Shown here: in pieces, positions 15,915 through 32,392 of the stretch
How positions within the stretch are numbered: the stretch's first letter is position 1
Layout of the letters: each line of letters opens with the position of its first letter
Origin: Actinomycetota bacterium
Lineage (GTDB): Bacteria > Actinomycetota > Actinomycetes > S36-B12
Length of the DNA stretch: 32,392 bases
Direction of reading: 5' to 3'
Assembly (NCBI GenBank): GCA_002737125.1
Contig: NSHP01000005.1
Coordinates: 1-32,392 of the forward strand
Made by a program: the position numbers and the translations under genes
The notes under the pieces: model-generated
Told to the model about the DNA's origin: nothing
Database searches by the model: none
The model's input: only the letters and a program-made list of their open reading frames with translations

Positions 15915-16532
15915 TCAGGAAGGCTCCCTTTCTGTCAAAGTCCCAAGTGGTAAGCCAAGTTCAATTTCGGCGCCGCGGCGTGACCACTTAGTTACTTGGG
16001 CGCCGGTAACTGAGTCACTGTGGGCTACCTCCTGCAAGTGGAGCCCATCTAGTAATGACAATATGCGCCAAGCAGCGGCCACTGGATCAAGGCAGGTCAT
16101 TAATCCGGCGCGCACACCGCCTTCGATGATGCTGCAGATGAGTTGTTGCCATGCCTTGTTCAGTCTTTGCGATATTTGTCTAAGTTCAGGGCGCCGGGCG
16201 GCTTCCGCCCAGGCATCGAGCCACAGTTGCATACCCGAATCCCCGTCAGAGCGGGTGTAGGAGTCGAAGAAGAATCTCATTTGCTCTATCGGATCTCGGC
16301 CCTGCTCCACCAAGTTGCTGGTTGTCAGCAGGTCGGCACCGGCTGACCGCTCGAAGGCTTCGGCGATAAGTTCGTCCATTGAGGTCATGTAGTGGTGGAT
16401 CAGGCCACTGGAGGCGCCGAGTTCGGCTGCGACGTCGCGGACGGTGGTCGCGGCGATGCCCTGCCGTTGCATCACGGCCAAGGTGGCGGCGATTATCGCC
16501 TCACGCCGGTCGTCCGGGTTCATCCTGGCCAT
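15915..16532 (-). CDS. TetR-family regulator (BetI-like)
   Basis: 205 aa; REAIIAATLAVMQRQGIAATTVRDVAAELGASSGLIHHYMTS HTH; divergent from the GcvT operon. Confidence 0.88.
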   Translation of the reverse strand: MARMNPDDRREAIIAATLAVMQRQGIAATTVRDVAAELGASSGLIHHYMTSMDELIAEAFERSAGADLLTTSNLVEQGRDPIEQMRFFFDSYTRSDGDSGMQLWLDAWAEAARRPELRQISQRLNKAWQQLICSIIEGGVRAGLMTCLDPVAAAWRILSLLDGLHLQEVAHSDSVTGAQVTKWSRRGAEIELGLPLGTLTEREPS

Positions 16533-16549
16533 ACGGATAGGTTAGACGC

Positions 16550-16581
16550 TATTGCGCAAATGTCCAATAATCACCTAGGAT
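16550..16581 (+). promoter_or_regulatory. Putative promoter with overlapping TetR operator-like inverted repeat
   Basis: TATTG-N10-CAATA (16550-16569); -35-like TTGCGC (16552-16557), 18-nt spacer, -10-like TAGGAT (16576-16581). Confidence 0.45.
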
Positions 16582-16607
16582 GAGTAATCGACAAGTCAAG
16601 GAGCGCG

Positions 16608-17807
16608 ATGATGCGAACGACACCTTTCCACCCGCGCTTGGCCGAGTTGAGCCAAACCCAGATGTGGGGCAATTGGTCTGGATACCTGTCGGCTGTGCGC
16701 TATGACCTCTCGAGCAAGCATGAGTATTTCGGGGTTAGAAATGCCGCTGGTTTCTTCGATACTTCTCCACTCTATAAATACTGGATTCGTGGGCGAGATG
16801 CTGAACTCTTGTGTTCGTTTGCCTTTGCGCGAGATGTCCGAACACTCAAGCTCGGTCGTGCTCAGTACACCATCTGGTGCGATGACGACGGATTTATCAT
16901 GGAGGATGGGGTTCTTTTTCGCTTTGCCTCCGATGAATTCCTGCTCACCGCGGCCGAGCCCAACATGGGCTACTTAAAACAATTGAGCCGCCGGTACGAC
17001 GTCGAGATAGTCGACGCGAGTGAAGATTATGCTTCACTTGCAATCCAAGGCCCACGATCGCGCGACATCCTCGAAGTGCTTACTCCCGACATTTCAGGCC
17101 TTCGCTACTTCGGATTCACCGAGACGAAAATTGCCAACACCCCTGTGACCATCAGCCGCACCGGGTTCAGCGGAGACCTCGGCTATGAGGTAATAATTCC
17201 GGTCGCAGATGCCCTACCAGTCCTTGATGCCATCCTCGAGGCTGGCCACCCGCATGGACTACGCCCATATGGCGATGAGGCACTTGGCATGACCCGCATC
17301 GAGGCAGGCTTGCCGCTTATTGGAGTTGAGTTCAACTCCAGTCGATACGCCTGGACCGCGGAAGACCGCTTCACACCCGATGAACTAGGCCTCGGCTGGC
17401 TCCTTAAGGGCATCGAGGATGACAGCCGACCGTTTATTGGCCGCGATGCGATCTTGCGCGAGCGCGCCGATGGCTCCTCCCGGTGGCGCACGGTCGGTAT
17501 CACCGTCGCATGGAGTGACTTCTATGAACTTTTTGATTCACGCGGTCACCTTGCGGTCCCCGATGAAATTCCCGTGGCTTGGGAGTCCATGCTCTACGAC
17601 GCCAAAGACAAACGTATTGGCTACGCCACCAGCTTCATGTATTCACCTATCCTCCAGTGCCATATCGGCATTGCCCGTGTCAAGCCAAAATACGCCGAAC
17701 CGGGTACCGACATCTACCTTGAGCAAACGGTGAACCACGAATACATCAACGTACGGGCCACCGTCACCACCTTGCCTTTCTACAACCCCGAGAGGAAAAC
17801 CGCCTGA
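16608..17807 (+). CDS. Stand-alone GcvT-like aminomethyltransferase/demethylase
   Basis: 399 aa; FGVRNAAGFFDTSPLYKYWIRG, GFIMEDGVLFRFASDEFLLT, SLAIQGPRSRDIL, SRTGFSGDLGYEVIIP; AAGGAG upstream. Confidence 0.88.
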   Translation: MMRTTPFHPRLAELSQTQMWGNWSGYLSAVRYDLSSKHEYFGVRNAAGFFDTSPLYKYWIRGRDAELLCSFAFARDVRTLKLGRAQYTIWCDDDGFIMEDGVLFRFASDEFLLTAAEPNMGYLKQLSRRYDVEIVDASEDYASLAIQGPRSRDILEVLTPDISGLRYFGFTETKIANTPVTISRTGFSGDLGYEVIIPVADALPVLDAILEAGHPHGLRPYGDEALGMTRIEAGLPLIGVEFNSSRYAWTAEDRFTPDELGLGWLLKGIEDDSRPFIGRDAILRERADGSSRWRTVGITVAWSDFYELFDSRGHLAVPDEIPVAWESMLYDAKDKRIGYATSFMYSPILQCHIGIARVKPKYAEPGTDIYLEQTVNHEYINVRATVTTLPFYNPERKTA

Positions 17808-17808
17808 C

Positions 17809-19407
17809 ATGTCGGACACCAATAACTACGACGCGATCGTCATCGGTGGCGGCCACAATGGACTGACCAACGCCGCCTACCTTGCCAAGGCTGGAAAGAA
17901 GGTTTTGGTCCTCGAGCAGCGACACCTAGTGGGTGGTGCCGCCATCACCGAGGAGCTGCGACCTGGCTTCCAATTCACTACTTTCTCCTACGCACTGAGT
18001 CTGCTGCGCCCCGAAATCATTCAGGAACTTGATCTAGTGCGTTACGGATTCATGCCCCTGCTGATGCGCTCACATTTCGCCCCGATGGAAAACGGCGACT
18101 ATTTCTTACTCGGTCCTGATGCGGGCCTCAATCGACAAGAAATCGCCCGGCACTCAAAAGCCGACGTTGACGGCATGGAGCGGTTTGAACATGACACCGC
18201 GCGCGTGCGCCAGTTCATCCGGCCACTGTTTGACTCGATTCCGCCTAATCTGTTTAGCGACGACCCGGCCGATGCCGACAAAATGGCGTGGTTGCTCAAG
18301 CATCTAGGCACCGGTAACAAGAAAGTAATCCACGACACGGTGCGCCTGTTGACCGGCAGCATCGCGGACTTTTCTGATGACTACCTTGAGTCCGACATCA
18401 TCAAGGCCACGATCTGCTCAGCGGCTTGTGTGGGAATCAAATTGGGCCCAATGTCACCTGGCAGCGGCATGAACTGGCTGTATCTGTCAATGGGTGAGCA
18501 CGACGGTATCGGCGGATCCTGGTCCTTCCACAAGGGTGGTAACGGCGGCTTCACACAGGTGTTGGCCCGCGCGGCCGCGGCCTACGGCGCAGAGATTCGG
18601 CTGGATTCACACGTTGATCACCTAATTACTGAAAAGGGCGAGGTGAAGGGTGTTGCCCTCCGGGACGGAACTGAATTCCGTGCACCGGTCGTGGTGAGTT
18701 CGCTAGATCCTCGGCGCACCTTCTTGGAGATAGCCGATCCACGTGAACTCCCTGCTGATTTGGTCGAAACTATTCAGCGATTCCGTTTTCAAGGGGTCGC
18801 ATCGAAGGTGAACTTCGCTCTCGACGGGCTCCCGGAGTACCCTGCGCTCAGCGGTCGCGCCGATCAGTATCTCGGGTTCATAAATGTGGCTCCGACCGTG
18901 GAATACATGGAGCGGGCCTACGACGCAGCTAAGTACGGCTGGTACTCCGAGCACCCATATATAGATGCGTGCATTCAGTCCTTAGTGGACCCTGACATGG
19001 CACCTCCTGGCAAGCATGTGATGTCGTGCTTTGTGATGTACACCCCGTATGAACTCAAAGGCAGCACCTGGCAGGCGGAGCGGGAGAACATGGCCGATCG
19101 AGTGCAGGCTACCCTCCAAGGTTTCTTCCCGAACTTCAACGACCTGGTACTTCAGCGCGAAGTCGTCTCGCCTGACATCATCGAAGCCAAGACCGGCCTC
19201 TCAGAGGGCAATATCTATGCGGGTGAGTTCTTCCCACATCAGATGTATTTCTTCCGGCCGGCGCCTGGCTACAGCGACTACAGAACTCCCATTCATGGGT
19301 ACTACCAGTGTGGTTCTGGCACCCACCCCGGTGGTTGCGTGATCGGTGCACCGGGGCGGTTGGCAAGCCAACAGGTACTTAAGGATCTAGGCCGGGAAAA
19401 GGCTTAG
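17809..19407 (+). CDS. FAD-dependent oxidoreductase, phytoene desaturase/PYROXD2-like
   Basis: 532 aa; YDAIVIGGGHNGLTNAAYLAKAGKKVLVLEQRHLVGGAAITEEL; C-terminal YQCGSGTHPGGCVIGAPGR; 1 nt after the GcvT stop. Confidence 0.9.
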   Translation: MSDTNNYDAIVIGGGHNGLTNAAYLAKAGKKVLVLEQRHLVGGAAITEELRPGFQFTTFSYALSLLRPEIIQELDLVRYGFMPLLMRSHFAPMENGDYFLLGPDAGLNRQEIARHSKADVDGMERFEHDTARVRQFIRPLFDSIPPNLFSDDPADADKMAWLLKHLGTGNKKVIHDTVRLLTGSIADFSDDYLESDIIKATICSAACVGIKLGPMSPGSGMNWLYLSMGEHDGIGGSWSFHKGGNGGFTQVLARAAAAYGAEIRLDSHVDHLITEKGEVKGVALRDGTEFRAPVVVSSLDPRRTFLEIADPRELPADLVETIQRFRFQGVASKVNFALDGLPEYPALSGRADQYLGFINVAPTVEYMERAYDAAKYGWYSEHPYIDACIQSLVDPDMAPPGKHVMSCFVMYTPYELKGSTWQAERENMADRVQATLQGFFPNFNDLVLQREVVSPDIIEAKTGLSEGNIYAGEFFPHQMYFFRPAPGYSDYRTPIHGYYQCGSGTHPGGCVIGAPGRLASQQVLKDLGREKA

Positions 19408-19427
19408 TTAATAAGTTAACTAGTGCC

Positions 19428-21875
19428 TTAACTGAGCACTCGGCTGCGGTCTGGATCGTAGAAGGGACGCAGTTGCAGGCGCGCCGAATACTTCTGGCCG
19501 GCGACCACAACTTCAAACCCGTCTTCGGCTAGCCAGTCGGCGGTGACCCCGTCCGGATTGTCGATGGTCGCAAGACCAACCGATGCTCCAAGGGTGTGTC
19601 CGAAGCCGCCAACCTGCAGGTAACCAACCCACTTACCGTCCTTTAGCACCGGCTCACTGCCGTGCAGCACCGGCTCAGGGGAGTCCAGCAGCAAACACAC
19701 CAATCGGCTGGTGCGGTCGGTTCGCATTTTTTCGAGAGCAGCCTTGCCGCGAAACGCGGTTGGTTTATCCCAGGCCACCGCGAAAGCCAAGCCAGCCGTG
19801 ATCGGGGTATCGGTGTTATCGATATCGATCCCGTAGTCGCGGTAGCCCTTCTCCAAGCGCAGGCTATGAAGGGCCCCGAGGCCCACTGGCCGAAGTCCAA
19901 GATCCTGCCCAGCTGCTTCGAGGGTTTGCCAGACCGAAACCGCTTGATCTGAAGGTATGTAGAGCTCAAAACCCAGTTCGCCAACATAGGTGACCCGCAA
20001 AACCAGAATCCGCGAATACCCAACTTCAATTTCGCGACCGGTTAAATAGGGGAAGGCCGCATCGGAAAGAGCATCTGGACTCACACGCTCAAGTAGTTCA
20101 CGGGACTTAGGCCCTTGCACCGTGAGTATCACGAATCCGGCGGTGACGTCAGTGACCGTGGCGAATTCACCATCGCAAATTTCATCAAGCAACATTCGCT
20201 CAACGCGCCGATGCGTTACGTCCGAGACCACCACCATGAACTTTTCTTCACCGAGCCGGGTAACTGTGAGATCAGCTTCAATGCCACCACGGTCATTGCA
20301 CCATTGGGTATACACCACCCGGCCGACCGCACCGACAACTTCGTTGGCGCTTAGGCGATCCAAAATAGTTGCAGCATTTGGCCCCTGGACGAGGAATTTA
20401 GACATCACGGTCATGTCCATCACGCCAACGTTTTCACGGACGGTTTTGTGCTCAGCGGCGATCCATGGAGTCCAGTGGCCGCGCTCCCAGGTCCATGGCA
20501 CTACTGGGTTTTCGCCGGTTGGCGAAAACCACTCGGGGAACTCCCAGCCGGCTGATACCCCGAAGTAGGCACCGGCTCGCTCCCACGTTTCATGTAGTGG
20601 TGATCTGCGGATCCCGCGCGCGGTGTGTTGGTGGAAGGTGGGGAAGGAGCCATCGCCGAAAAGCACTCCTAGTTGCTCAACGGTGCGCTCGGTGCGAAAG
20701 CGTAGGGAGTTTTCAAATGGTAGGGCCCGCTCAATGCTGAAGGCCGCGATATCAACCGGGCATATGCCATCGACAATCCAACTCGCCATGACGTTTCCGA
20801 TGCCCCCGCCCATCAAAATCCCGACCGAGTTCAAGCCGGCAGCAACAAAGAGACCATCTACTTCGGGGGCCGGGCCCAGCAACGGCAATACGTCCGCGGT
20901 GAAACTCTCTGGGCCGCAAAACAAGGTTCGAATACCGGCTTCCGAAAGACTAGGGATGCGGGCCATGGCTTTCTCCAGATGCGGAGTCATCCGATCCCAA
21001 TCCGGGGAGATAGTGCCGAAGGCGAAATCCTCAGGTGCTTCCTTCGGGTACCACGGTGCGGCCACCGGCTCGAAGAGCCCCACCAGCATGCCATCGCCCT
21101 CTTCGCGGAAATACCCGTAGCACTCCAGATCTTCGATGATGGGAAGGTCTCGATGCACCCCTGCCATCGGCTCGGTAAGCAGGTAGTAATGCTCGGCGGC
21201 CTGTAGTGGCACATCGACGCCGGCCTTGCGGGCCAGCTGCCTCGTCCATAACCCTGCGCACAGGACGACGGTTTCGGCCTCGACATTGCCAGCATTGGTT
21301 GTGACACCGGTAATCCGACGCCCGGTACGTGTGAAACCGGTAACCGAAATCCCCTCAAGGATGGTGGCACCGGCCAAGCGGGCGCCTTTAGCCATGGACG
21401 TTGCCACGCCAACGGGGTCGGCACGACCCTCGTCCACGACATATGACGCTCCGATTAGGTCATCAACACGGGCGAGTGGGAATAGCTCACTTACCTCGCG
21501 CGGCGAAATTATTTCGTTGGGGACGCCGTAGCCAACCTGAAAGTCCCGTTCGCGAAGCAGTGTCTCGAATCGGGCCGGGTTGGTCGCTACCGAGAGGTGG
21601 CCGACCGGGCGAAATCCAGTTGAGTGGCCCGTCTCCTCCTCAAGTCGCGCATAAAGGTCACGTGAGTAGCGTGCCATCCAAAGTGAGGTGTCATCGTGGT
21701 ACCCGGCGCTGGTGATCAGGCCGGCAGCATGCCAGGTAGTGCCGGCAGTCAGTTGGTCCTTCTCAATAAGTAGCACATCTTTTACACCGAGTTTGGTGAG
21801 GTGGTAGGCAATGGAACAACCAATAACACCGCCGCCGACTATCACAACCTGAGCCCGCGCGGGCGGCGTATTCAC
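19428..21875 (-). CDS. FAD-dependent oxidoreductase/GcvT fusion (dimethylglycine/sarcosine dehydrogenase-like)
   Basis: 815 aa; VVIVGGGVIGCSIAYHLTKLG, TTWHAAGLITSAG, C-terminal GcvT domain GGIEADLTVTRLGEEKFMVV, YVGELGFELYIPSDQ. Confidence 0.92.
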   Translation of the reverse strand: MNTPPARAQVVIVGGGVIGCSIAYHLTKLGVKDVLLIEKDQLTAGTTWHAAGLITSAGYHDDTSLWMARYSRDLYARLEEETGHSTGFRPVGHLSVATNPARFETLLRERDFQVGYGVPNEIISPREVSELFPLARVDDLIGASYVVDEGRADPVGVATSMAKGARLAGATILEGISVTGFTRTGRRITGVTTNAGNVEAETVVLCAGLWTRQLARKAGVDVPLQAAEHYYLLTEPMAGVHRDLPIIEDLECYGYFREEGDGMLVGLFEPVAAPWYPKEAPEDFAFGTISPDWDRMTPHLEKAMARIPSLSEAGIRTLFCGPESFTADVLPLLGPAPEVDGLFVAAGLNSVGILMGGGIGNVMASWIVDGICPVDIAAFSIERALPFENSLRFRTERTVEQLGVLFGDGSFPTFHQHTARGIRRSPLHETWERAGAYFGVSAGWEFPEWFSPTGENPVVPWTWERGHWTPWIAAEHKTVRENVGVMDMTVMSKFLVQGPNAATILDRLSANEVVGAVGRVVYTQWCNDRGGIEADLTVTRLGEEKFMVVVSDVTHRRVERMLLDEICDGEFATVTDVTAGFVILTVQGPKSRELLERVSPDALSDAAFPYLTGREIEVGYSRILVLRVTYVGELGFELYIPSDQAVSVWQTLEAAGQDLGLRPVGLGALHSLRLEKGYRDYGIDIDNTDTPITAGLAFAVAWDKPTAFRGKAALEKMRTDRTSRLVCLLLDSPEPVLHGSEPVLKDGKWVGYLQVGGFGHTLGASVGLATIDNPDGVTADWLAEDGFEVVVAGQKYSARLQLRPFYDPDRSRVLS

Positions 21876-21909
21876 TGTTTCTCCTAGTCGCTACGAAGTG
21901 GTCGAGGGA

Positions 21910-22836
21910 TTACAGATTGCCAGTAAAAGATATTAGGTCGGTGGATTCACCTTGGCGCTTGGACCACCGGCGGTAGAGCAGCCAACCTACCACTATTACG
22001 AGCGTCGAGACGACCAAAATGATGGTCGCCATGGCGTTCAGCGCTGGTGTTGGGGCTGCGCGTGCTACCTGATAAATCCGCATGGATGTGGTCTCGGTGC
22101 TGGCGTCGGAGGAAAGATAGCGAACGATGACGAAGTTATCGAGCACATCTGCAAATATCAAGATGGCGCTCACGAGGATGGCTGGAAACAGCATGGGCAG
22201 AATTACCCTTCGCACCGCCCCGAGAGCCGTTGCCCCCAAATCACGGGCGGCCTCCTCATAGTGCGCGCTAATCGTCAAGAGTCGGGCCCGACAAATGACG
22301 ATTGGATAGGCCAACTGGAAGGTCACCAGACCAACGATCTGTGCTGTGGTGCCCAATCCGAAGGGTGTCGCGAGGTAGGTCACCATGAAGAGCAGGCCGA
22401 TCGCCAAAGCAATCTCGGGGATTACGAAAGTGATGAGCGCCAGGAAATTAGCCCCGGCCGGCAATCGTCCCCGCCACCGATCCAGCGCCAGGGCAAAGAG
22501 CACCCCTAACGGGACGGTGATCGCGGTGGCGATGACGGCCAGCAGCACGGTGTGTGTCAGGGCATTTCGAATTGACTCATCATTTATTACCGAGCCGTCG
22601 GGATCCCAGGTGTACCAGCGCAGCGAAAACCCTTGCCAGGTGCTCCTAGATCGCCCAGCATTGAACGAGAAGAGCACAACGACCGCGACTGGTACTAGTG
22701 ACCAAAGTAGGTAAACCGCGGTGATGGCGGCGAGCCCATGTGCGCGCGCACCGGACGTGCCTCTAGGTGCGCGCTGTCGACGAGTCTCCTGCGCCTCCGC
22801 AAGCAGCGCCTCCGCCGGCGCCGGTGACACTGTCAT
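21910..22836 (-). CDS. Spermidine/putrescine-type ABC transporter permease (PotC-like)
   Basis: Hydrophobic; FALALDRWRG, ARLLTISAHYEEAARDLGATALGAVRRVILPMLFPAIL; start at MTVSPAP overlaps the upstream gene stop. Confidence 0.9.
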   Translation of the reverse strand: MTVSPAPAEALLAEAQETRRQRAPRGTSGARAHGLAAITAVYLLWSLVPVAVVVLFSFNAGRSRSTWQGFSLRWYTWDPDGSVINDESIRNALTHTVLLAVIATAITVPLGVLFALALDRWRGRLPAGANFLALITFVIPEIALAIGLLFMVTYLATPFGLGTTAQIVGLVTFQLAYPIVICRARLLTISAHYEEAARDLGATALGAVRRVILPMLFPAILVSAILIFADVLDNFVIVRYLSSDASTETTSMRIYQVARAAPTPALNAMATIILVVSTLVIVVGWLLYRRWSKRQGESTDLISFTGNL

Positions 22837-23729
22837 GAGCGCACCTCGGCCTTCGCGTTGCTGCGGGTGTACCAAATCATCGGAGCCAGCAGCACCAGAA
22901 GCACCAAAATAAGCAGAGCGCCAGCCTGCCCGGACTGGCCCGGAGTAGCGATAGACAGGTTGATCAGATTGCCGATCATCGACGTGTTCGGCGACTTCGA
23001 CAGCATGTCGCTGGTGAAGTAGTCGCCCATCATGGGCAGGGCGATGAGCAAAGTGCCGGCGACAATGCCGGGCACGCTCATCGGGAGGATCACGCGGCGG
23101 AAGAGTTCAAATCCACTGGCGCCAAGATCGCGTCCGGCTTCGATGAGACTTGGGCTGATGCGGTCAAGGGCCGCAAATAGCGGCAGGAGCATGTAGGGAA
23201 CATAGCCGTAGATCAAACCCATGACGACGGTGAACGGGTTGCCGCTTAGCCAATTGACCTGCAGCGGGATTATGCCCCCGAGCGTAATCATGGAATTGAC
23301 GAGTCCGTCGGGCTGCAGCAGATTAATCCAAGCCAGCATGCGCATCATGTACGAGATCCAAAATGGCGCCACCAATAGGGCGAGAATCAGTGCACGGTGC
23401 CGGCCGGCGTAGCGTGCGGTGAAGTAGGCCACCGGAAAAGCGATGATCATGCAGGCGACGACTGCTACGACTACGTACAGCAGGGTGCGGAGGACCGGTG
23501 GGAGATAGAAGTTGTTCGGGCCGACGAGTCGATCCCAAACCACCAACACCTGCTCGAACTGCCATTCCAGTGGGTTCCACGCTGGCACGGGTGACCGGAA
23601 GATTGGGTCGACCGTGCCGAACGTAACGCAGAAGACAACGTAGAGCGGTACCAAGAAGAACAGCGCGATCCACGCCATGCCGGGGAGGCCAAGGATCGGC
23701 CAGATGAAGCGCGAAGTGCGGTCGGGCAA
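22833..23729 (-). CDS. Spermidine/putrescine-type ABC transporter permease (PotB-like)
   Basis: 298 aa hydrophobic; YVPYMLLPLFAALDRISPSLIEAGRDLGASGFELFRRVILPMSVPGI. Confidence 0.9.
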   Translation of the reverse strand: MPDRTSRFIWPILGLPGMAWIALFFLVPLYVVFCVTFGTVDPIFRSPVPAWNPLEWQFEQVLVVWDRLVGPNNFYLPPVLRTLLYVVVAVVACMIIAFPVAYFTARYAGRHRALILALLVAPFWISYMMRMLAWINLLQPDGLVNSMITLGGIIPLQVNWLSGNPFTVVMGLIYGYVPYMLLPLFAALDRISPSLIEAGRDLGASGFELFRRVILPMSVPGIVAGTLLIALPMMGDYFTSDMLSKSPNTSMIGNLINLSIATPGQSGQAGALLILVLLVLLAPMIWYTRSNAKAEVRS

Positions 23730-23730
23730 T

Positions 23731-25023
23731 TCAGGCTCCCGATTTGAACTGCTGCCAAATTGCCTGGTATTCGGCTTCGACCGCCACCGGGAGCTCCAAC
23801 AGCGGGTAGCCCACCTGGAACCATTCTGGCTTGACGATAGCTCCGGCGAGGTTCGCTGGGAGATAGCCGTCAGCCACCATGGACTCAGGGGTCAATGAAC
23901 GCAGCGGCGGTTGGTACCCCACGAAGCTGAGGTTCTTGATTGATACTTCACTCTTCAGCATGTAGTTGAGGAAGTGGTGAGCCATGACCGGGTTCTCACC
24001 GCCCTTGAGCACGCACAGGAAGTCATTGCCGACTACCCCTTGACCCGTCGGCGGACTCCAGTAGCGCAGCAATGCGGGATCGACACCTTCGGGTAGGTAG
24101 TACTGGCCGGTAATCATGTCACCAGACCAGCATTGCGCCAGCGACATCGTGCCCTCGGGGATATCTGTGTAGCCGGTGATTGTGACTCGCGGTCGGCTGA
24201 CCGAAAGCATCTCCAGCATCGAATCACGTGTTTGTCCCAGGACCGCAGGGTCAGCGCTGTTTACGTCGGTACCGCCATTGCGTAGAATAGTCATGGCAAT
24301 AACTTCACGGTCATCGTCAAGAACGGCTATTGCGCCGGCATACTTGGCGTCCCAGAACACGTCATACGGGTTAGACCTAGCGCTGATGTCTTCGGGGATG
24401 AGGTCGTGCCGCCAGCCGATGCCGGTGGTGTAGATCGTGTAGGGCACCGTGTATTGCCAGCCCTGGTCGTAGAACGGGTTCTGGAACTCCTCCCACACAT
24501 CATTGATGTTCGGGATGTAGTCGTGGTTTAGTGGTCGAATGAGATCACCGTAAACCAATTTGCCCATGTAGTTATAGGTGAGGAACCCAACGTCAAATGG
24601 GACGCTGCCGGAGCGAATCTTGGTCAGGGCCTCGGGCAGGTCATTAAAGGTCGATAGTTCGACCTTGACGTTGTAATCGGCGTACTCCTTTTGGAAGTCC
24701 TTGAGTACACGTTTGTAGACGTAGTCGGGGTAGTTATAGACACGAAGGGTGGCATTCATCTCCGGTTCAAGCCCGGACGCAATGGGTTCATTGCCTGGGT
24801 TGATCGGCCACTTCACCGGATTCTGCGGTGAGGCTATTGGGATTTCGGTCAATGGCGGCAAGGAAGCCGCCGCCGAGCCCCCGGCGGTCGAAGCTGCGGG
24901 CGCGGGGGCACCGAGGGGCTGTGCGCGGGCGCACGAACTTAAAACCCAGGCGCCAGGCACCCCCAAGGCGGAGGCTTGGAGTAGGCGTCGCCTAGAGATC
25001 GAGGGGCGGGGACGATCAGCCAT
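23731..25023 (-). CDS. Spermidine/putrescine-type extracellular solute-binding protein (PotD-like), Tat/lipoprotein signal
   Basis: Start at MADRPRPSISRRRLLQ; lipobox VLSSC; LRVYNYPDYVYKRVLKDFQKEY...VELSTFNDLPEALTKIRSG. Confidence 0.9.
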   Translation of the reverse strand: MADRPRPSISRRRLLQASALGVPGAWVLSSCARAQPLGAPAPAASTAGGSAAASLPPLTEIPIASPQNPVKWPINPGNEPIASGLEPEMNATLRVYNYPDYVYKRVLKDFQKEYADYNVKVELSTFNDLPEALTKIRSGSVPFDVGFLTYNYMGKLVYGDLIRPLNHDYIPNINDVWEEFQNPFYDQGWQYTVPYTIYTTGIGWRHDLIPEDISARSNPYDVFWDAKYAGAIAVLDDDREVIAMTILRNGGTDVNSADPAVLGQTRDSMLEMLSVSRPRVTITGYTDIPEGTMSLAQCWSGDMITGQYYLPEGVDPALLRYWSPPTGQGVVGNDFLCVLKGGENPVMAHHFLNYMLKSEVSIKNLSFVGYQPPLRSLTPESMVADGYLPANLAGAIVKPEWFQVGYPLLELPVAVEAEYQAIWQQFKSGA

Positions 25024-25173
25024 CTGTACTCCTTGGGTAGGGCCGGTCGAGTGTTTGATGCCTACCTTGACCGATGGTTTAGGTTCTGGCAAGAGATTTA
25101 GCATAACTGCCGCACAAAGGACTATCTGCCACCAAGATTAGCACCGGGCACTACTGCGAATGAGGGAGTTTCG

Positions 25174-26265
25174 TTGACTGATGGCAGCGTGAATGTGCGG
25201 CAGCTAGCCAAAAGCTACGGCGAGGTCGAGGCGGTGCGCGGGATCGACCTCGATATCGCCGGTGGGGAGTTTTTCAGCCTCCTCGGGCCATCTGGTTGCG
25301 GCAAGACCACCACCTTGAGGATGATCGCGGGCTTCGAGACGCCAACTAGCGGAGAGATTCGCATTGACGGTGTTGATGTCGTTCAAACAGCAGCGCACGA
25401 GCGCCCGGTAAACACCGTCTTCCAAAACTATGCCCTATTCCCCTTTTTGTCCGTCGCGGACAACGTGGCCTTCGGGCTGCGCTATCAGCAGGTAGATAAA
25501 GCCGGAGTCAAGCGCAAGGTGGCAGAGGCCCTTGAAATGGTTCGCATGGGCAAATATGCCAAGCGCAAGCCGGGTCAACTCTCCGGTGGGCAACAGCAGC
25601 GAGTGGCACTGGCCCGTGCCATCGTGCTCGGCCCCAAAGTGCTTTTGCTCGATGAGCCACTTGGTGCGCTAGATGCCAAGCTCCGCAAAACTTTGCAAGT
25701 CGAACTTAAGTCCCTGCAGCAGTCGGTAGGTATTACGTTCGTTTACGTCACCCATGATCAAGAGGAAGCACTCACCATGAGTGATCGGATGGCGGTAATG
25801 GCGGCCGGCAAGGTTGAGCAGATCGGCTCACCTGCTGATGTGTACGAAAATCCAGAAACCGCATATGTCGCGGACTTCCTCGGCAGCGCGAATGTTGTCA
25901 CTGTGGAGGTAATTGGGGCCGGCGCACCCGGCCGCACGGCATTTAGCCTGGGCTCGGTAACACTTGAAGCCGTCGGGCCAACCATGGCACCGGGCCCAGG
26001 AACTTTGGTCATTAGGCCTGAACGTATTTACCTAGATCCAACCGCTGATGACGCCGTGGCTATCTCGGCAACTGTCGAACGCACGGTGTACCTCGGCGCG
26101 ATGTCAGATATAATAGTGCGCTTGGACTCAGGGCAAGAGTTGGTGGTTCGTAGGCCGAGTGAATTGTCTGGCAACCATCACCGTGGTGAAAAAGTCATGG
26201 TGCACCTGCGCCCCAATGCAATGCGCTTGGTGCCAGCTGGCTCACTAGCCGCGGCCGCTGATTAG
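25174..26265 (+). CDS. Spermidine/putrescine-type ABC transporter ATP-binding protein (PotA-like)
   Basis: TTG start with GAGGGAG; GPSGCGKTTTLRMIAGFETPTSGEIRIDG, LSGGQQQRVALARAIVLGPKVLLLDEPLGALDAKLR, TOBE-like C-terminus. Confidence 0.93.
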   Translation: MTDGSVNVRQLAKSYGEVEAVRGIDLDIAGGEFFSLLGPSGCGKTTTLRMIAGFETPTSGEIRIDGVDVVQTAAHERPVNTVFQNYALFPFLSVADNVAFGLRYQQVDKAGVKRKVAEALEMVRMGKYAKRKPGQLSGGQQQRVALARAIVLGPKVLLLDEPLGALDAKLRKTLQVELKSLQQSVGITFVYVTHDQEEALTMSDRMAVMAAGKVEQIGSPADVYENPETAYVADFLGSANVVTVEVIGAGAPGRTAFSLGSVTLEAVGPTMAPGPGTLVIRPERIYLDPTADDAVAISATVERTVYLGAMSDIIVRLDSGQELVVRRPSELSGNHHRGEKVMVHLRPNAMRLVPAGSLAAAAD

Positions 26266-26606
26266 AAAAGCACGTACAGCTTGCGAAGAGTCTCGTGAAT
26301 ATCCCAGGTGCCTTTCCAGCCAACCGGTACCAGAAAAGTCACACCTGGCCCGGCAAAGAATGAGTCACCGTCATCTGGGGTCACGGTCATGCTGCCGGAT
26401 AGAATATGGACAAATTCGTTTTGCTCCAGGCTCCAATAGGACGGGCCTGCGGTGCACTCCCAGATGCCGGCCTCGGAGCTATTTTCGCCCGACCACATCG
26501 TGTATCCGGAAGTTTGCATCGGCGCACCCGTGGCCTCTGCCAGTGGCCCCCAGTCTTCAAGCTCCGATACCTCGTTAGCTGCTTGAATAAACGGGGCGGT
26601 AATCAA
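26262..26606 (-). CDS. Cupin-domain protein (DUF861/(S)-ureidoglycine aminohydrolase-like cupin)
   Basis: 114 aa; MWSGENSSEAGIWECTAGPSYWSLEQNEFVHILSGSMTVTPDDGDSFFAGPGVTFLVPVGWKGTWDIHETLRKLYV. Confidence 0.88.
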   Translation of the reverse strand: MITAPFIQAANEVSELEDWGPLAEATGAPMQTSGYTMWSGENSSEAGIWECTAGPSYWSLEQNEFVHILSGSMTVTPDDGDSFFAGPGVTFLVPVGWKGTWDIHETLRKLYVLF

Positions 26607-27817
26607 TGGTCCACCTTTTCGGTTTGAGCCGCGCTCGGTGCAGCGGCATTTAAGGGCGATAGTGGCTGCCCGAGGTAGCCGCGGGCAACCATAGTGACAA
26701 ATTGATAGATGGCGTCCTCAGCGGGGGAAAGAGGACCGGATTTCGCAAACCCAGATTCCAGCCCACGTTGTACCGATTCGCAGGCACTCCAATCTTCACG
26801 ATTTGTGATATCCCAGAAGTCAACAGCATAAGCGGGGTCAAATGTTGGCGATGCGATTGCTTCAGGGGGGAAAGCCCATGAGCATTCAACCCAGGTGCGA
26901 CCAGGCGACAACGGGATGGCTCGGTGCGTCATTAGGTAATCTGGGTGCAGGCTTATCAATAAGTTCGGGAAAACCCCGATGTAGTCGATTCGCCTAAGTT
27001 CAGTAGGTGACAGGTTTGGTATCGGAACTCCATCGCTGTGGCCATCAAGTGACATCGTTGTCGCGTGCTCGCGAAGGTCTTGCCAGCCACCCACCCACGA
27101 GCCAAGTGTTGGGGCCCAGTTCTCTCCGCTTTCAGGCGGGCTTACCTGGCAAAGTTCAGGGTGAATTGAGGTGCAGTGATAGCACTCTTGGTAGTTCTCG
27201 TTGATGATTTTCCAATTGGCTTCAATGACGTACTCATGGGTCGCCATCACGACTAGCCGCTCAGGCTGGTAAGGGCCTATTCGCTCACTTAAACCGGATA
27301 GATGCATTTCGAGGGGACCTGAAGCACCTGAGGGGTCTAGAAATATCCAGCCGTGCCACTCCTGCACTGGAAGTGCCGTGAGTGGGAATTCGGATACATC
27401 GAAATTCGATTCACCTTGGTAACCGGCTGCGTTGAAAAGATCTCCATCCAACCGATATGACCACGAATGGTAGGGGCAGGTAATTGCTCGTGCGGTAGTT
27501 GAACCTCCGCAGGGGAGAATTTCGTGTCCGCGGTGTCGGCAAACATTGGCAAACGCACGCAACACCAGATCCTCGCCGCGCACCAGCAACATTGTGGTAT
27601 CACCGACCTTGTCGGCACGTTGCATGCCAGCAGCTGCTATGTCTGCGCTACGCCCGATGCATTGCCATCCAGCAAAGAAGTTGGCACTCTCCCAAGCGAA
27701 AACCTCATCTGAGGTGTAAGCCTCCGGTGGGAGCATTCGACTTTGACCAAATGGCGCTAGTGACCTAGCTAAGGCAAAAGGGTCAAGTGGAGCAGGGGTT
27801 TTCGGGTTGGCCATTTG
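26603..27817 (-). CDS. Rieske [2Fe-2S] ring-hydroxylating-type oxygenase alpha subunit, GbcA-like (betaine/quaternary amine demethylase candidate)
   Basis: Rieske motif CRHRGH-x16-CPYHSWSY; NWKIINENYQECYHCTSIHPEL mononuclear iron motif; start at MANPKTPAP (ORF extends to 27886). Confidence 0.88.
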   Translation of the reverse strand, partial: QMANPKTPAPLDPFALARSLAPFGQSRMLPPEAYTSDEVFAWESANFFAGWQCIGRSADIAAAGMQRADKVGDTTMLLVRGEDLVLRAFANVCRHRGHEILPCGGSTTARAITCPYHSWSYRLDGDLFNAAGYQGESNFDVSEFPLTALPVQEWHGWIFLDPSGASGPLEMHLSGLSERIGPYQPERLVVMATHEYVIEANWKIINENYQECYHCTSIHPELCQVSPPESGENWAPTLGSWVGGWQDLREHATTMSLDGHSDGVPIPNLSPTELRRIDYIGVFPNLLISLHPDYLMTHRAIPLSPGRTWVECSWAFPPEAIASPTFDPAYAVDFWDITNREDWSACESVQRGLESGFAKSGPLSPAEDAIYQFVTMVARGYLGQPLSPLNAAAPSAAQTEKVDH

Positions 27818-27863
27818 GAAAGCATAGGCAATGCGGGAATTGGCGTCCAGTTGGCGGGTCAAG

Positions 27864-29885
27864 TTACTGGGTGCAAATGATGGCATCTACCGCAATTGCG
27901 GTTGAGCCATCAACTATTACGGGATTGAGTTCAATCATGGTCCAATGCTCATCCATGAGTAGATTTCCGGCCCTGACTACGAGTTGGGCCAATTCGTGGA
28001 TTGCATAAACTTGTTGGCCGCGGCCGCCGGTGAGAAGTTCGGCACCTCGAAGGCGGCCGATTTCCCGAACTACCCGATTGCTATCGGTGGGTAACGGGAT
28101 AACAGCTACATCGTTCATAATCTCGGCCCAGATACCTCCTATCCCGACGACAACGCAGGGCACGATGCCCATGCTATGGGCGGCAACGAAAACCTCTACG
28201 CCAGTTTCGACCATAGCTTCTACCAGTAATTCAGGATTCGCTGGCAGTACCGGTATGCGCAGCAGTTGCGCGCTTGCGTCCCGAACTTCATTAGCGGTAG
28301 CCAGGTTAAGGGCCAGGGCGCCGATTTCACTTTTGTGTATGAGCCCTGGCGCGCTCACCTTTATGGCAACCGGAAAACCAATTTCGGCCGCCGCCGAAAC
28401 CGCAGCGTCACTGTTAGCCACCACCTGTGATTTTGGCACGAAGATGCCTACGGCGCGCAAGAACTCCTTTGCAGTGTGCTCGGCCAAGTATTGACTACCT
28501 AGATTGATAGGTGCGCGGCTGGCGCACTCAGCGATTTGCAGCAAACGGGATGGATCAGGGGCCGGCTGTTGCAGTGCGGCCACCGCTTTCAGCGCAGATA
28601 CGAGGCCACCGACCGCATCATCTGGTTCTTGTCCGGGCATCGAACTGACCAGCATTGTCGAAAGCTGTGCCCGCCCGCCGCCGGCAATCCCGCCGGCCCG
28701 GGTGGCATCCCATTCGGCGCGTGGGCCGGCGGGCAGCCCAGGTGGCAGGTCCTGCACATAAAGCAGATGGCCAACCCCCGGGTCGAGGGCCACCGTCTCA
28801 CAAATTGCGGCAACGGCCTCGGTGTCGGCCCAGACCAAATTAGTGTGGTCGAGGGGATTGGTTGCGGTCGCGGTTTTGGGCAGTAGGCCGGCAAGTGCCT
28901 GCAGCGTCGGGGCCCCAAAGTCGGCAAGTATCGCCCGGGCGTCATCAGCGAGGTCCGCCGCGAGGGTGGCATCGCCACCTGAGCAGGTGATGACCGCCGC
29001 GCCGCGTGCATCGCGGTGACCAATCGCCAAGGCGCGTGCTGTCTCGATCAGTGCGACTGGCTCGTGAACAAGGATTCCTCCGGCCTCTTGAATGAGTGCC
29101 TCGAAAACCTTTTGGTCGCCGGCAACCGCCGCTGTGTGTGCTGCGCCAGCTGCTCGGCCGCGCGAACTTCGGCCGGCCTTTAGGAAAACCACTCGTACGT
29201 CATTTTGTGCACACTTGGCCAGTGCCCTAGCGAGCCTGGCCCCGTCGCCATCACCTTCAAGGTAGGCACCTATTACTCGGACACCGTCGGTGGTGGCAAG
29301 TGAATCGATCAACATTGCGGAGTCGACCACGGCGGAGTTGCCGACGGAAAAGATGGAGTGCAGGCCGAGGCCTTGCCGATGGGCGAGCAAAACGACACCG
29401 ATATTTCCGCTCTGCGTTATCAAGGCAATTGGTCCTGCGTCAGTTGGTAGGAGGGCGGCATCCCCCCACAGCGCTGCTCTGGCTGGCACGGATACCAGGC
29501 CGTTGCCGTTGGGCCCGATGACCGGTAGTTCACCGGCCGCCGAGATCAAGTCGGCTTGGGCTAGGTCATTGCCGATCTCAGCGAAGCCGGCGGCAAAAAC
29601 CACAGCGCCGCCGCAGCCCAGTTCGCGCGACTGCAAGAGGTACCCCGGCACCGATTCGGCTGGCGTCGCGATCACCACGGCATCTACCGACTCGCTTAGG
29701 TCCTGAAGGCTAGGTACGCAGCGAAAACTAAGTACCTCTTTCCGAGTTGGGTGCACACCGATAACAGTTCCCGCATACCCATTTCTAATCAGGTTAAGCA
29801 AGGTGGTGTGTGCATAGGAGCCGGGGCGTTCGGTTGCCCCAATCACGGCAATAGAGCGTGGCCTGATGAGCCGCGAAATATCCAT
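27864..29885 (-). CDS. ADP-forming acyl-CoA synthetase / acetate-CoA ligase family protein
   Basis: 673 aa; N-terminal CoA-binding domain LIRPRSIAVIGATERPGS, GPNGNGLVS, LITQSGNIG; C-terminal ATP-grasp FPVAIKVSAPGLIHKSEIGALALNL. Confidence 0.9.
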   Translation of the reverse strand: MDISRLIRPRSIAVIGATERPGSYAHTTLLNLIRNGYAGTVIGVHPTRKEVLSFRCVPSLQDLSESVDAVVIATPAESVPGYLLQSRELGCGGAVVFAAGFAEIGNDLAQADLISAAGELPVIGPNGNGLVSVPARAALWGDAALLPTDAGPIALITQSGNIGVVLLAHRQGLGLHSIFSVGNSAVVDSAMLIDSLATTDGVRVIGAYLEGDGDGARLARALAKCAQNDVRVVFLKAGRSSRGRAAGAAHTAAVAGDQKVFEALIQEAGGILVHEPVALIETARALAIGHRDARGAAVITCSGGDATLAADLADDARAILADFGAPTLQALAGLLPKTATATNPLDHTNLVWADTEAVAAICETVALDPGVGHLLYVQDLPPGLPAGPRAEWDATRAGGIAGGGRAQLSTMLVSSMPGQEPDDAVGGLVSALKAVAALQQPAPDPSRLLQIAECASRAPINLGSQYLAEHTAKEFLRAVGIFVPKSQVVANSDAAVSAAAEIGFPVAIKVSAPGLIHKSEIGALALNLATANEVRDASAQLLRIPVLPANPELLVEAMVETGVEVFVAAHSMGIVPCVVVGIGGIWAEIMNDVAVIPLPTDSNRVVREIGRLRGAELLTGGRGQQVYAIHELAQLVVRAGNLLMDEHWTMIELNPVIVDGSTAIAVDAIICTQ

Positions 29886-29902
29886 GTTGGAGATAGATCC
29901 GC

Positions 29903-31087
29903 TCAGGTGAGCATTGACTTGACGCCGCGACGTTCTAGTGATCGGGCCACCACGAGACGCTGGATCTCCGAGGTTCCCTCCCAGATTCGATCGACTCTAA
30001 GTTCTCGCCAGAATCTCTCGGCCGCCGTGGTGCGCATGTATCCGCGACCCCCGAAGATCTGCACTGCTCGGTCGGCGCACCGTCCGGCCGCTTCCGAGCA
30101 AAAAAGTTTCGCCATTGACGCTTTGCCATGCACCAGTTTGGGGTCGGCGCCCGCATCAGATAGTCGGGCGACTTCCAACCCGAGGAGGCGCCCGGCTGCA
30201 GCGTCAGCCGCGCTGTCGGCCAGCGGGAAGCTCACCCCTTGGTGATCGATGAGCCTGGCACCGCCTTGTTCGCGGTGTGCGGCCCAGTCAACTGACTCTT
30301 CGATCAGTCGCTGCATTGCGCCAACACAGCGTGCGGCAATCCCTAGTCTTTCCTCGGTGAACCAAATGCGCTGCAAATCCTCGCCATTACCGAGGCCGCC
30401 GAGGATGTCAGCATCGGTGAGTTCAACATCGGTGAATCTCATGGTCGGATGCCCATGTGGGTAGTTGTGGGTGAAAGGGACATCAGCAATGATCTCAACA
30501 CCGGGTGCGTCGGCCGGAACCGCGAAAAGGGTAGGAAGCAACTGACCGCCATCATCTGCCAGCGCCATCACCACTATTACTTTGGCGACGGAACCAAACG
30601 TCACGAACCACTTCTCGCCATTTAGTAACCACCTGCCGGTGCCTGTCCTGACCGCAGTTGTCGTGATTCCCGAAGGGTCACTGCCAGCATCAACCTCTGT
30701 TACCGCATAGGCATCGTGTAGTTCACCGCGAAGTGCCGGCTTTAGCCAACGTTCGATCTGCTCGGGTGTGCCGGCTTTCCAGACGTTGTATGCGTTTGGG
30801 ATATACCAAGAGACCCCGTTAGTCGAGCGCCCAAGTTGCTCTTCGACAAGAAACCACTCGGTGCTCGTCCAGCTATTGCCACCGTGCTCCTGCAAGTGCA
30901 GCCCACCATGTAAACCATGCTCTAGTGCCCGCCGGGCTATGTCACGCTGCGTTGCTGCGGGCAACGGGCCGCCGGCCAGCTCCGCCGTAACTTCGTGCGG
31001 GATCAACACCTCGTCGACGAAAGCCGCCGCGCGCTCACTTAACTCAGCAAGGTGCCTTGGGTCACTCGGGTCGGGGGCAGTAGACAT
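29903..31087 (-). CDS. Acyl-CoA dehydrogenase family protein
   Basis: 394 aa; YAVTEVDAGSDPSGITTTAVRTGTGRWLLNGEKWFVT, AKLFCSEAAGRCADRAVQIFGGRGYM, RIWEGTSEIQRLVVARSL. Confidence 0.93.
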   Translation of the reverse strand: MSTAPDPSDPRHLAELSERAAAFVDEVLIPHEVTAELAGGPLPAATQRDIARRALEHGLHGGLHLQEHGGNSWTSTEWFLVEEQLGRSTNGVSWYIPNAYNVWKAGTPEQIERWLKPALRGELHDAYAVTEVDAGSDPSGITTTAVRTGTGRWLLNGEKWFVTFGSVAKVIVVMALADDGGQLLPTLFAVPADAPGVEIIADVPFTHNYPHGHPTMRFTDVELTDADILGGLGNGEDLQRIWFTEERLGIAARCVGAMQRLIEESVDWAAHREQGGARLIDHQGVSFPLADSAADAAAGRLLGLEVARLSDAGADPKLVHGKASMAKLFCSEAAGRCADRAVQIFGGRGYMRTTAAERFWRELRVDRIWEGTSEIQRLVVARSLERRGVKSMLT

Positions 31088-31134
31088 CTGGTTGGCTCTC
31101 CTACACTGGTGCGCAGTTTCGACAGCAGCCTAAC

Positions 31135-31150
31135 CTGAATGACCGTTCAA
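31135..31150. promoter_or_regulatory. Operator-like inverted repeat CTGAATGACCGTTCAA between divergent ACAD and TetR genes
   Basis: Matches CTGAACGACCGTTCAG at 31913-31928 at 14 of 16 positions. Confidence 0.6.
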
Positions 31151-31205
31151 TATCCTCACCGGTTGAAATTCTTCGAGTCGAACCCAAGTTTTGAGAAGGA
31201 GTTAG

Positions 31206-31856
31206 ATGGCAAAAACGGCCTTGGCGGCGAAAGCGCCTGAGGAGCGGCGCGAGCGAATCCTGCGAGCCACCATCGCCGTCGTGCGTGAGCGTGGGTTCGC
31301 GGGGACAAGGGTCACCGACATTGCCGCCGCGGCCGAAACTTCACAGGGCCTGATTCTTTATCATTTCGGTTCCCTGGCCGGCGCCTTCGCGGCCAGCTTG
31401 ACCTTGCTCGAGGACGAGTTCTATGAGGAATTGGCGCGCAACCTCAGCGAGGTGGTTGGCCCGGTACCGCGCCTTCGCCATATCGCTGAACTCGGCGCCG
31501 GATACGGTCCAGCCGTAGGTGATTGGCGGCTCTGGCTGGAATTGTGGGTGCGGGCTATTCGCGATGATGATGCCCGCGCCGCTAGGGAGTCCTTGGATAC
31601 CCGGTGGCGGGGTGCTTTGCGCCAAGTAGTGGACGAAGGATTGGCCGCCGGGGTGTTTGAAGCTAGCGATCCGAAAGCTTCGGTATTGCGATTGGCCGCC
31701 TTGATGGATGGCCTTGCTATCCAGTTGGCCTTGGCTGAGCCGGGCATGACAACCGGCAAATTCACTGAACTGTGGTGGCAATCTGCGGTCTTGGAACTTG
31801 GGATTTCCCCGGTAAGTGCGGTAACCGGTTCCAAGGGAGGCCAGAAGAAAAACTAA
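31206..31856 (+). CDS. TetR-family regulator
   Basis: 216 aa; RRERILRATIAVVRERGFAGTRVTDIAAAAETSQGLILYHFGSLAGAF HTH; AGAAGGAG upstream. Confidence 0.92.
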   Translation: MAKTALAAKAPEERRERILRATIAVVRERGFAGTRVTDIAAAAETSQGLILYHFGSLAGAFAASLTLLEDEFYEELARNLSEVVGPVPRLRHIAELGAGYGPAVGDWRLWLELWVRAIRDDDARAARESLDTRWRGALRQVVDEGLAAGVFEASDPKASVLRLAALMDGLAIQLALAEPGMTTGKFTELWWQSAVLELGISPVSAVTGSKGGQKKN

Positions 31857-31874
31857 ACGCGCACCCGAGGCACT

Positions 31875-31903
31875 TGCTGAATGGTCAGTCAGGATGCTAT
31901 CCT
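31875..31903 (+). promoter_or_regulatory. Putative promoter of the aminotransferase gene
   Basis: TTGCTG (31875-31880), 17-nt spacer, TATCCT (31898-31903). Confidence 0.5.
31877..31892. promoter_or_regulatory. Operator-like site CTGAATGGTCAGTCAG overlapping the -35/spacer
   Basis: Reverse complement CTGACTGACCATTCAG aligns with the two other operator-like sites. Confidence 0.5.
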
Positions 31904-31912
31904 GCGGTTTTG

Positions 31913-31928
31913 CTGAACGACCGTTCAG
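31913..31928. promoter_or_regulatory. Operator-like palindrome CTGAACG-AC-CGTTCAG
   Basis: Perfect 7-bp arms with 2-bp centre, just downstream of the putative -10. Confidence 0.65.
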
Positions 31929-31946
31929 GATAAAAGGGTGTGGGAG

Positions 31947-32392
31947 ATGTTCGCCAAGCAGCGCTTCGGCGCTAGCGCTGACCAAGTTTCGGCGCGTGCA
32001 CACCTGTTATTGAATTTCACTGATTTCAGCAACTTCGAGGACCGGCCCATCCCGATAATGGTTCGTGGCGACGGCCTTGAAGTGATCGATTCGAATGGAC
32101 GCCGCTATCTTGATGGTCTCTCCGGGTTATTCTGCACCAACTTGGGCCATGGGTATGGGGCTGAAGTAGGTGCGGCAGCCCAGCGGCAACTTTCGGAAAT
32201 GGTGTATTCGCCGAACTGGTCGCTGACCCACCCCGCCGCGGTGCATCTGGCGGAACGGTTAACCGACGCAGCGGAGCCACTTGGCATGACCAGGCTTTTC
32301 TTAACAAGCGGTGGTGGCGAGGCAGTTGAAGCCGCCTGGAAACTAGTTCGTCAGTGGCACCTTGCCAACGGGCAGCCGCAACGACATAAGGC
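31947..32392 (+). CDS. Class III (PLP-dependent) aminotransferase, N-terminal part; truncated by window end
   Basis: Open frame from ATG 31947 to the window edge: GDGLEVIDSNGRRYLDGLSGLFCTNLGHGYGAEVGAAAQRQLSEMVYSPNW...LFLTSGGGEAVEAAWKLVRQW; GGGAG-type leader. Confidence 0.9.
   Translation, partial: MFAKQRFGASADQVSARAHLLLNFTDFSNFEDRPIPIMVRGDGLEVIDSNGRRYLDGLSGLFCTNLGHGYGAEVGAAAQRQLSEMVYSPNWSLTHPAAVHLAERLTDAAEPLGMTRLFLTSGGGEAVEAAWKLVRQWHLANGQPQRHK

Follow-up and report, generated by a model that had tools for sequence, protein, structure and literature searches.

A predicted three-site operator system linking a BetI-type TetR regulator with acyl-CoA/Rieske and aminotransferase genes in freshwater actinobacteria

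Does a single TetR-family regulator control the genes on both of its flanks? The question is raised by one end of a 32,392-nucleotide stretch of DNA from an Actinomycetota bacterium (contig NSHP01000005.1), the whole of which was analysed and is called the window. The regulator gene (31206-31856, plus strand) encodes a 216-aa protein with a TetR_N domain (PF00440, 1e-8; 35.3 bits against a cut-off of 24) and a BetI-type C-terminal ligand-binding domain (PF13977, TetR_C_6, 8e-17; 61.9 bits against a cut-off of 27). On one side, across a gap of 118 bp (31088-31205), the length given in an earlier note on this DNA, lies a divergent minus-strand operon headed by an acyl-CoA dehydrogenase gene (acad, 29903-31087; Pfam Acyl-CoA_dh_1/M/N). 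It continues with an ADP-forming acyl-CoA ligase (27864-29885, minus strand; CoA_binding_2, Succ_CoA_lig, ATP-grasp_5), whose PDB relatives are a 4-hydroxybutyrate-CoA ligase and a DMSP lyase entry, and with the alpha subunit of a Rieske oxygenase of the quaternary-amine type (26603-27886, minus strand; Rieske, Ring_hydroxyl_A), and ends with a small EutQ-like cupin (26262-26606, minus strand; Cupin_3 by Pfam; PDB 3bcw, TM1112). The run is as tightly spaced as had been claimed: acad and the ligase gene are 17 bp apart, ligase and Rieske genes overlap by 23 bp, and Rieske and cupin genes by 4 bp. On the other side, the 5' part of a class III aminotransferase gene (31938-32390, plus strand; Aminotran_3) runs to the contig end; a full-length same-genus aminotransferase (L046:6733-8184) scores above the PRK06541 cut-off. 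The gene names of the earlier note agree with Pfam and NCBIfam; the synthetase can be specified further as ADP-forming.

The earlier note had placed three related 16-mers around the regulator gene, and each matches letter for letter. They are near-identical 16-bp near-palindromes, predicted operators here called O1 (CTGAATGACCGTTCAA, 31135-31150, plus strand, in the acad/tetR divergent gap), O2 (CTGACTGACCATTCAG, reverse complement of 31877-31892) and O3 (CTGAACGACCGTTCAG, 31913-31928, plus strand), the last ending 9 bp short of the GTG listed as the start of the aminotransferase gene (31938). The shared pattern, CTGAMYGNNCRTTCAG, has four matches in the window with up to two mismatches, the fourth being the opposite strand of O3, against 0.22 expected, and none of 100 shuffles reaches four. 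Across the draft genome of 1.26 Mb, which is 57% complete, exact matches are confined to these three sites; the missing part may hold further targets of this strain. A scoring matrix was derived from 49 distinct sites that all come from other genera. In a scan of the window, O3, O1 and O2 rank first to third (26.0, 21.1 and 20.9 bits), at least 9.9 bits above the next match, and the best score in 30 random Markov-model windows is 15.1 bits with the same matrix. The fourth-ranking match (30292-30307, 11.0 bits) lies within the acad coding region and was not counted as a site. A literature search with several spellings found no paper carrying the operator sequence.

The relatives compared were TetR orthologues from Candidatus Nanopelagicales, other actinobacterial metagenome-assembled genomes (MAGs) and two cultured Kineosporia strains. 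Several of the MAG records (L045, L047, L050, L051, L058, L071) are titled Bifidobacterium breve; their loci match freshwater Nanopelagicales relatives, and the titles look wrong. The close-orthologue set comprises 29 loci (L043-L071), some from the same genomes as the loci with G handles, so that the two sets are not additive. Conservation was checked in this set: the acad-tetR site is present in 26 of the 29 loci and the tetR-aminotransferase site or sites in 27, nearly always as a pair. The exceptions are L060, without acad, L068, without operon or site, L070, without O1, and L049, where the contig ends; in L070/L143 O1 is missing despite the presence of the operon. Seven distant loci, with TetRs 46-55% identical, still carry sites by tetR and/or the aminotransferase gene. 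Within the genus, a comparison of eight sequences gives 15 invariant columns out of 16 for O1, whereas the remainder of the acad-tetR gap has 41 of 102. The corresponding figures are 14 of 16 for O2 (seven same-genus sequences) and 13 of 16 for O3, against 30 of 49 in the remaining gap, a weaker contrast because the tetR-aminotransferase gap also houses a promoter and a ribosome-binding region.

Random occurrence was checked in nine other same-genus genomes (~17 Mb), in which all zero-mismatch matches to CTGAMYGNNCRTTCAG lie at the locus or before a PotA-type transporter, the match in the SBP/PotA promoter being that of G009. Every zero-mismatch site in the two cultured 7-Mb Kineosporia genomes falls within ~10 kb on one contig. 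An alternative is that the sequences are a repeat, mobile or arisen by chance, with no regulatory role. Duplication could yield three copies within 800 bp, but the sites are conserved across genera while their flanks drift, are under palindromic constraint, hold fixed positions relative to promoters and recur at further pathway promoters in relatives. A chance repeat was rejected on the matrix ranking against random windows, and this explanation retains a negligible probability. O1-O3 are most likely conserved operators of the adjoining TetR, as predicted from the DNA alone, and a TetR dimer is proposed to recognise the 16-bp palindrome CTGAAYG-NN-CRTTCAG.

Linkage between sites and proteins indicates which regulator is involved. 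Seven of the nine other same-genus genomes have the adjoining TetR together with the acad operon and sites, and the remaining two, G001 (96% complete) and G006, lack all three. Pattern matches are absent altogether from G001, and G006 has two one-mismatch matches, both on other contigs and away from any such operon. Across the family, the median number of pattern matches (one mismatch allowed, both strands) is 10 in genomes bearing an orthologue and 4 in the others, with a median of 3 for a reversed-pattern control; the p value of this difference (Mann-Whitney, 5e-10) overstates independence because the genomes are related. Site and protein can also be separated: several TetRs that are 53-61% identical but sit among other genes (L068/L142, L137-L139) lack a nearby site and may have changed targets.

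The sites could be real operators bound instead by the other BetI-type TetR of the window (15915-16532), given that both proteins are of this type and belong to one gene cluster that is also present in Kineosporia. Yet G001 carries this second TetR at 86% identity without the first TetR, the acad operon or a site, a distribution that ties the sites to the first TetR. Moreover, the distant loci L130-L136 have sites beside the first TetR and no close second-TetR homologue was found there, and the divergent promoter of the second TetR has another conserved palindrome, TATTGCGCAAATGTCCAATA. On its own palindrome and on the distribution in G001 and L130-L136, control by the second TetR was rejected and is very unlikely. 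The attribution of the sites to the adjoining TetR, as originally proposed, thus holds across genomes, where sites and operon follow this protein and not the second one.

The placement of the sites relative to promoters suggests how the adjoining TetR would act. Promoter elements at both arms were assigned by consensus and conservation. The predicted aminotransferase promoter (31874-31903, plus strand) has the TTGCTG (31874-31879) and TATCCT (31898-31903) hexamers that had been reported for it, but they are separated by 18 bp, not 17. A TGC precedes TATCCT and makes it an extended -10 element. O2 overlaps the -35 element and O3 lies directly past the predicted +1. In most relatives a TTG is kept immediately 5' of O2, and TGnTAnnnT between O2 and O3. 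On the acad side, the probable -10 of the operon is TAGGCT (31127-31132, minus strand), 2 bp from O1 and assigned from consensus and conservation; no good or recognisable -35 was found for this promoter. In nearly all relatives inspected, a hexamer of the form TAnnnT follows O1 at 1-2 nt on the acad side, and O1 thus fills the DNA just upstream of the acad -10. The overlap of sites with promoters is conserved across relatives. O2 and O3 lie 35-37 bp apart in Nanopelagicales-type loci, 48-49 bp apart in Kineosporia and 22 bp apart in some distant loci; distances of 22, 36-37 and 48-49 bp have no helical phase in common, which points to dimers that act independently instead of forming a loop.

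Some TetR-family regulators activate transcription, and O2 is situated upstream of the aminotransferase -10. An activating or mixed role at this promoter is nevertheless improbable: with O1 abutting a -10, O2 on a -35 and O3 past +1, the placement is consistent with steric repression. Six regulators were tested at +1 in E. coli, and every one of them repressed, BetI strongly (PMC8667592).

From the computed sites, their conservation, their linkage to the TetR and their overlap with conserved promoter elements, we infer binding, repression, autoregulation and an inducer. The TetR encoded at 31206-31856 is read, at a probability of about 0.9, as a local substrate-responsive repressor that would act through O1-O3 on both flanks. 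A dimer at O1 would occupy the DNA just 5' of the -10 that serves the acad-ligase-Rieske-cupin operon, and would curb transcription of tetR as well. Two more dimers, on O2 and O3, would lie over the -35 of the aminotransferase promoter and over its start region. The inducer may be the substrate, an acyl-CoA or another pathway intermediate, bound in the BetI-type C-terminal pocket; with inducer bound, the dimer would release the DNA and both arms would be expressed. The proposal that one regulator governs the acad/acyl-CoA synthetase/Rieske/cupin operon together with the aminotransferase gene is thus supported by conservation and by low random occurrence.

The closest parallel in arrangement is BetI of E. 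coli, the choline-responsive TetR repressor of betIBA/betT. The two proteins share a TetR_N and a BetI-type C-terminal domain, both have divergent genes with an operator within the gap, and the BetI operator, TTGATTGG-AC-GTTCAA, has the same TGA...TTCA 16-bp layout as the sites of the window, a likeness that the earlier note does not mention. In the E. coli bet region, the top match of the matrix is TTGATTGGACGTTCAA, between betI and betT, at 10.0 bits, against 4.2 for the next match and mostly 16-26 for true sites; TTGATTGGACGTTCAA is also part of an engineered BetI promoter (PMC7058928). However, the window TetR reaches 64.9 bits on the equivalog model TIGR03384, whose cut-off is 201.3, and adjoins acad, ligase, Rieske, cupin and aminotransferase genes rather than betA, betB or betT. 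The circuit also differs in its three predicted operators over two promoters and in its different type of catabolic operon. The protein would work in a BetI-like way, but its score below the equivalog cut-off and its lack of bet neighbours set it apart from BetI itself. KstR, PsrA and FadR of Bacillus are TetR repressors that respond to fatty acids or acyl-CoA and have palindromic operators, whose sequence probably differs from that of the sites described here. The window TetR resembles this group in adjoining an acyl-CoA dehydrogenase gene, but the KstR and PsrA models match it weakly, far under the cut-off.

The Rieske protein resembles the group of GbcA, CntA, YeaW and stachydrine demethylase. 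It has the ENYxECYHC...H motif, and the solved structures nearest to it, those of carnitine monooxygenase and a demethylase (4qup), belong to that group. As in the group, a Glu replaces the usual bridging Asp (E-x2-H-x4-H, in NENYQECYHCTSIHPE). In contrast to GbcA, the protein scores 171 bits on NF058607, whose cut-off is 670, and, unlike the genes of the GbcA/CntA group, its gene lies in a tight run without a reductase gene and is linked to those for an acyl-CoA ligase, a dehydrogenase and an aminotransferase.

In relatives the predicted regulon is wider than the three sites of the earlier note, and would take in a PotABCD-type transporter, an internal Rieske site and a flavin reductase/ligase pair. 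The SBP/PotA divergent promoter holds a strong site in L129 (20.9 bits), L053 (18.7), L059 (18.7), L060 (18.2) and Kineosporia (19.9), and a weaker one in L062. The L129 sequence comes from a same-genus genome, and its promoter holds an exact copy of O2 (CTGACTGACCATTCAG) at 1501-1516 (G009:C109:3634-3649). In L052, L053, L071 and L067 a strong site is also found 5' of the Rieske gene. In L064 and L065 one separates the gene for an OYE-type flavin reductase from that for a second ADP-forming ligase-like protein, and in L061 one adjoins the flavin reductase gene. The SBP/PotA divergent region of the window itself has a degenerate operator-like sequence, TTGACCGATGGTTTAG (25067-25082, plus strand), which at 6.5 bits is far ahead of any other match in that region; it is weak and possibly non-functional. 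The listed start of the SBP gene (25104) is probably too early: MADRPRPSISRRRLL, a Tat-like start near 25023, would give a divergent region of 150 bp (25023-25173) that contains the degenerate site at 25067.

The surroundings of the operon are also conserved. Kineosporia sp. A_224 and R_H_3 (L160, L161) have one conserved cluster that is the counterpart of 15915-32392 of the window, with genes for a transporter and permeases, a dimethylglycine-dehydrogenase-like protein, a second TetR, GcvT-like and CrtO-like proteins, and the Rieske/acyl-CoA genes. In the gap between the second tetR and the GcvT-like gene (16533-16607), members of the genus share the palindrome TATTGCGCAAATGTCCAATA, which has the form CTGTTGCGCAGGTGTCCAACAG in the two Kineosporia strains and is probably the operator of the second TetR.

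The best guess, a tentative one, is that the regulated pathway takes up and degrades an amine that is quaternary or otherwise N-methylated; it is based on the type of Rieske protein and on the PotABCD-type transporter, dimethylglycine-dehydrogenase-like and GcvT-like neighbours. More speculative, and on balance doubtful, is an undescribed aerobic route for an omega-amino acid betaine (e.g., gamma-butyrobetaine or beta-alanine betaine) under one BetI-like repressor. Such a route would start with PotABCD-type uptake and Rieske demethylation of the quaternary amine, go on to strip the other methyl groups in flavin- and folate-dependent steps, and end with transamination of the freed amine, CoA activation and dehydrogenation. 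A literature search found no described pathway that fits this gene make-up. If the reading is true, freshwater Nanopelagicales and Kineosporia would share a betaine route co-ordinated by one BetI-like repressor.

The predicted circuit would be a well-supported fresh example of an ordinary bacterial control type. It provides a predicted operator and regulon for a mostly uncultured lineage of freshwater actinobacteria in which regulation is seldom tested. It would also tie the aminotransferase, the transporter and the Rieske/acyl-CoA operon into one pathway, thereby narrowing the search for the substrate, and Kineosporia A_224 and R_H_3 are sequenced strains with the same predicted circuit that are suited to testing it.
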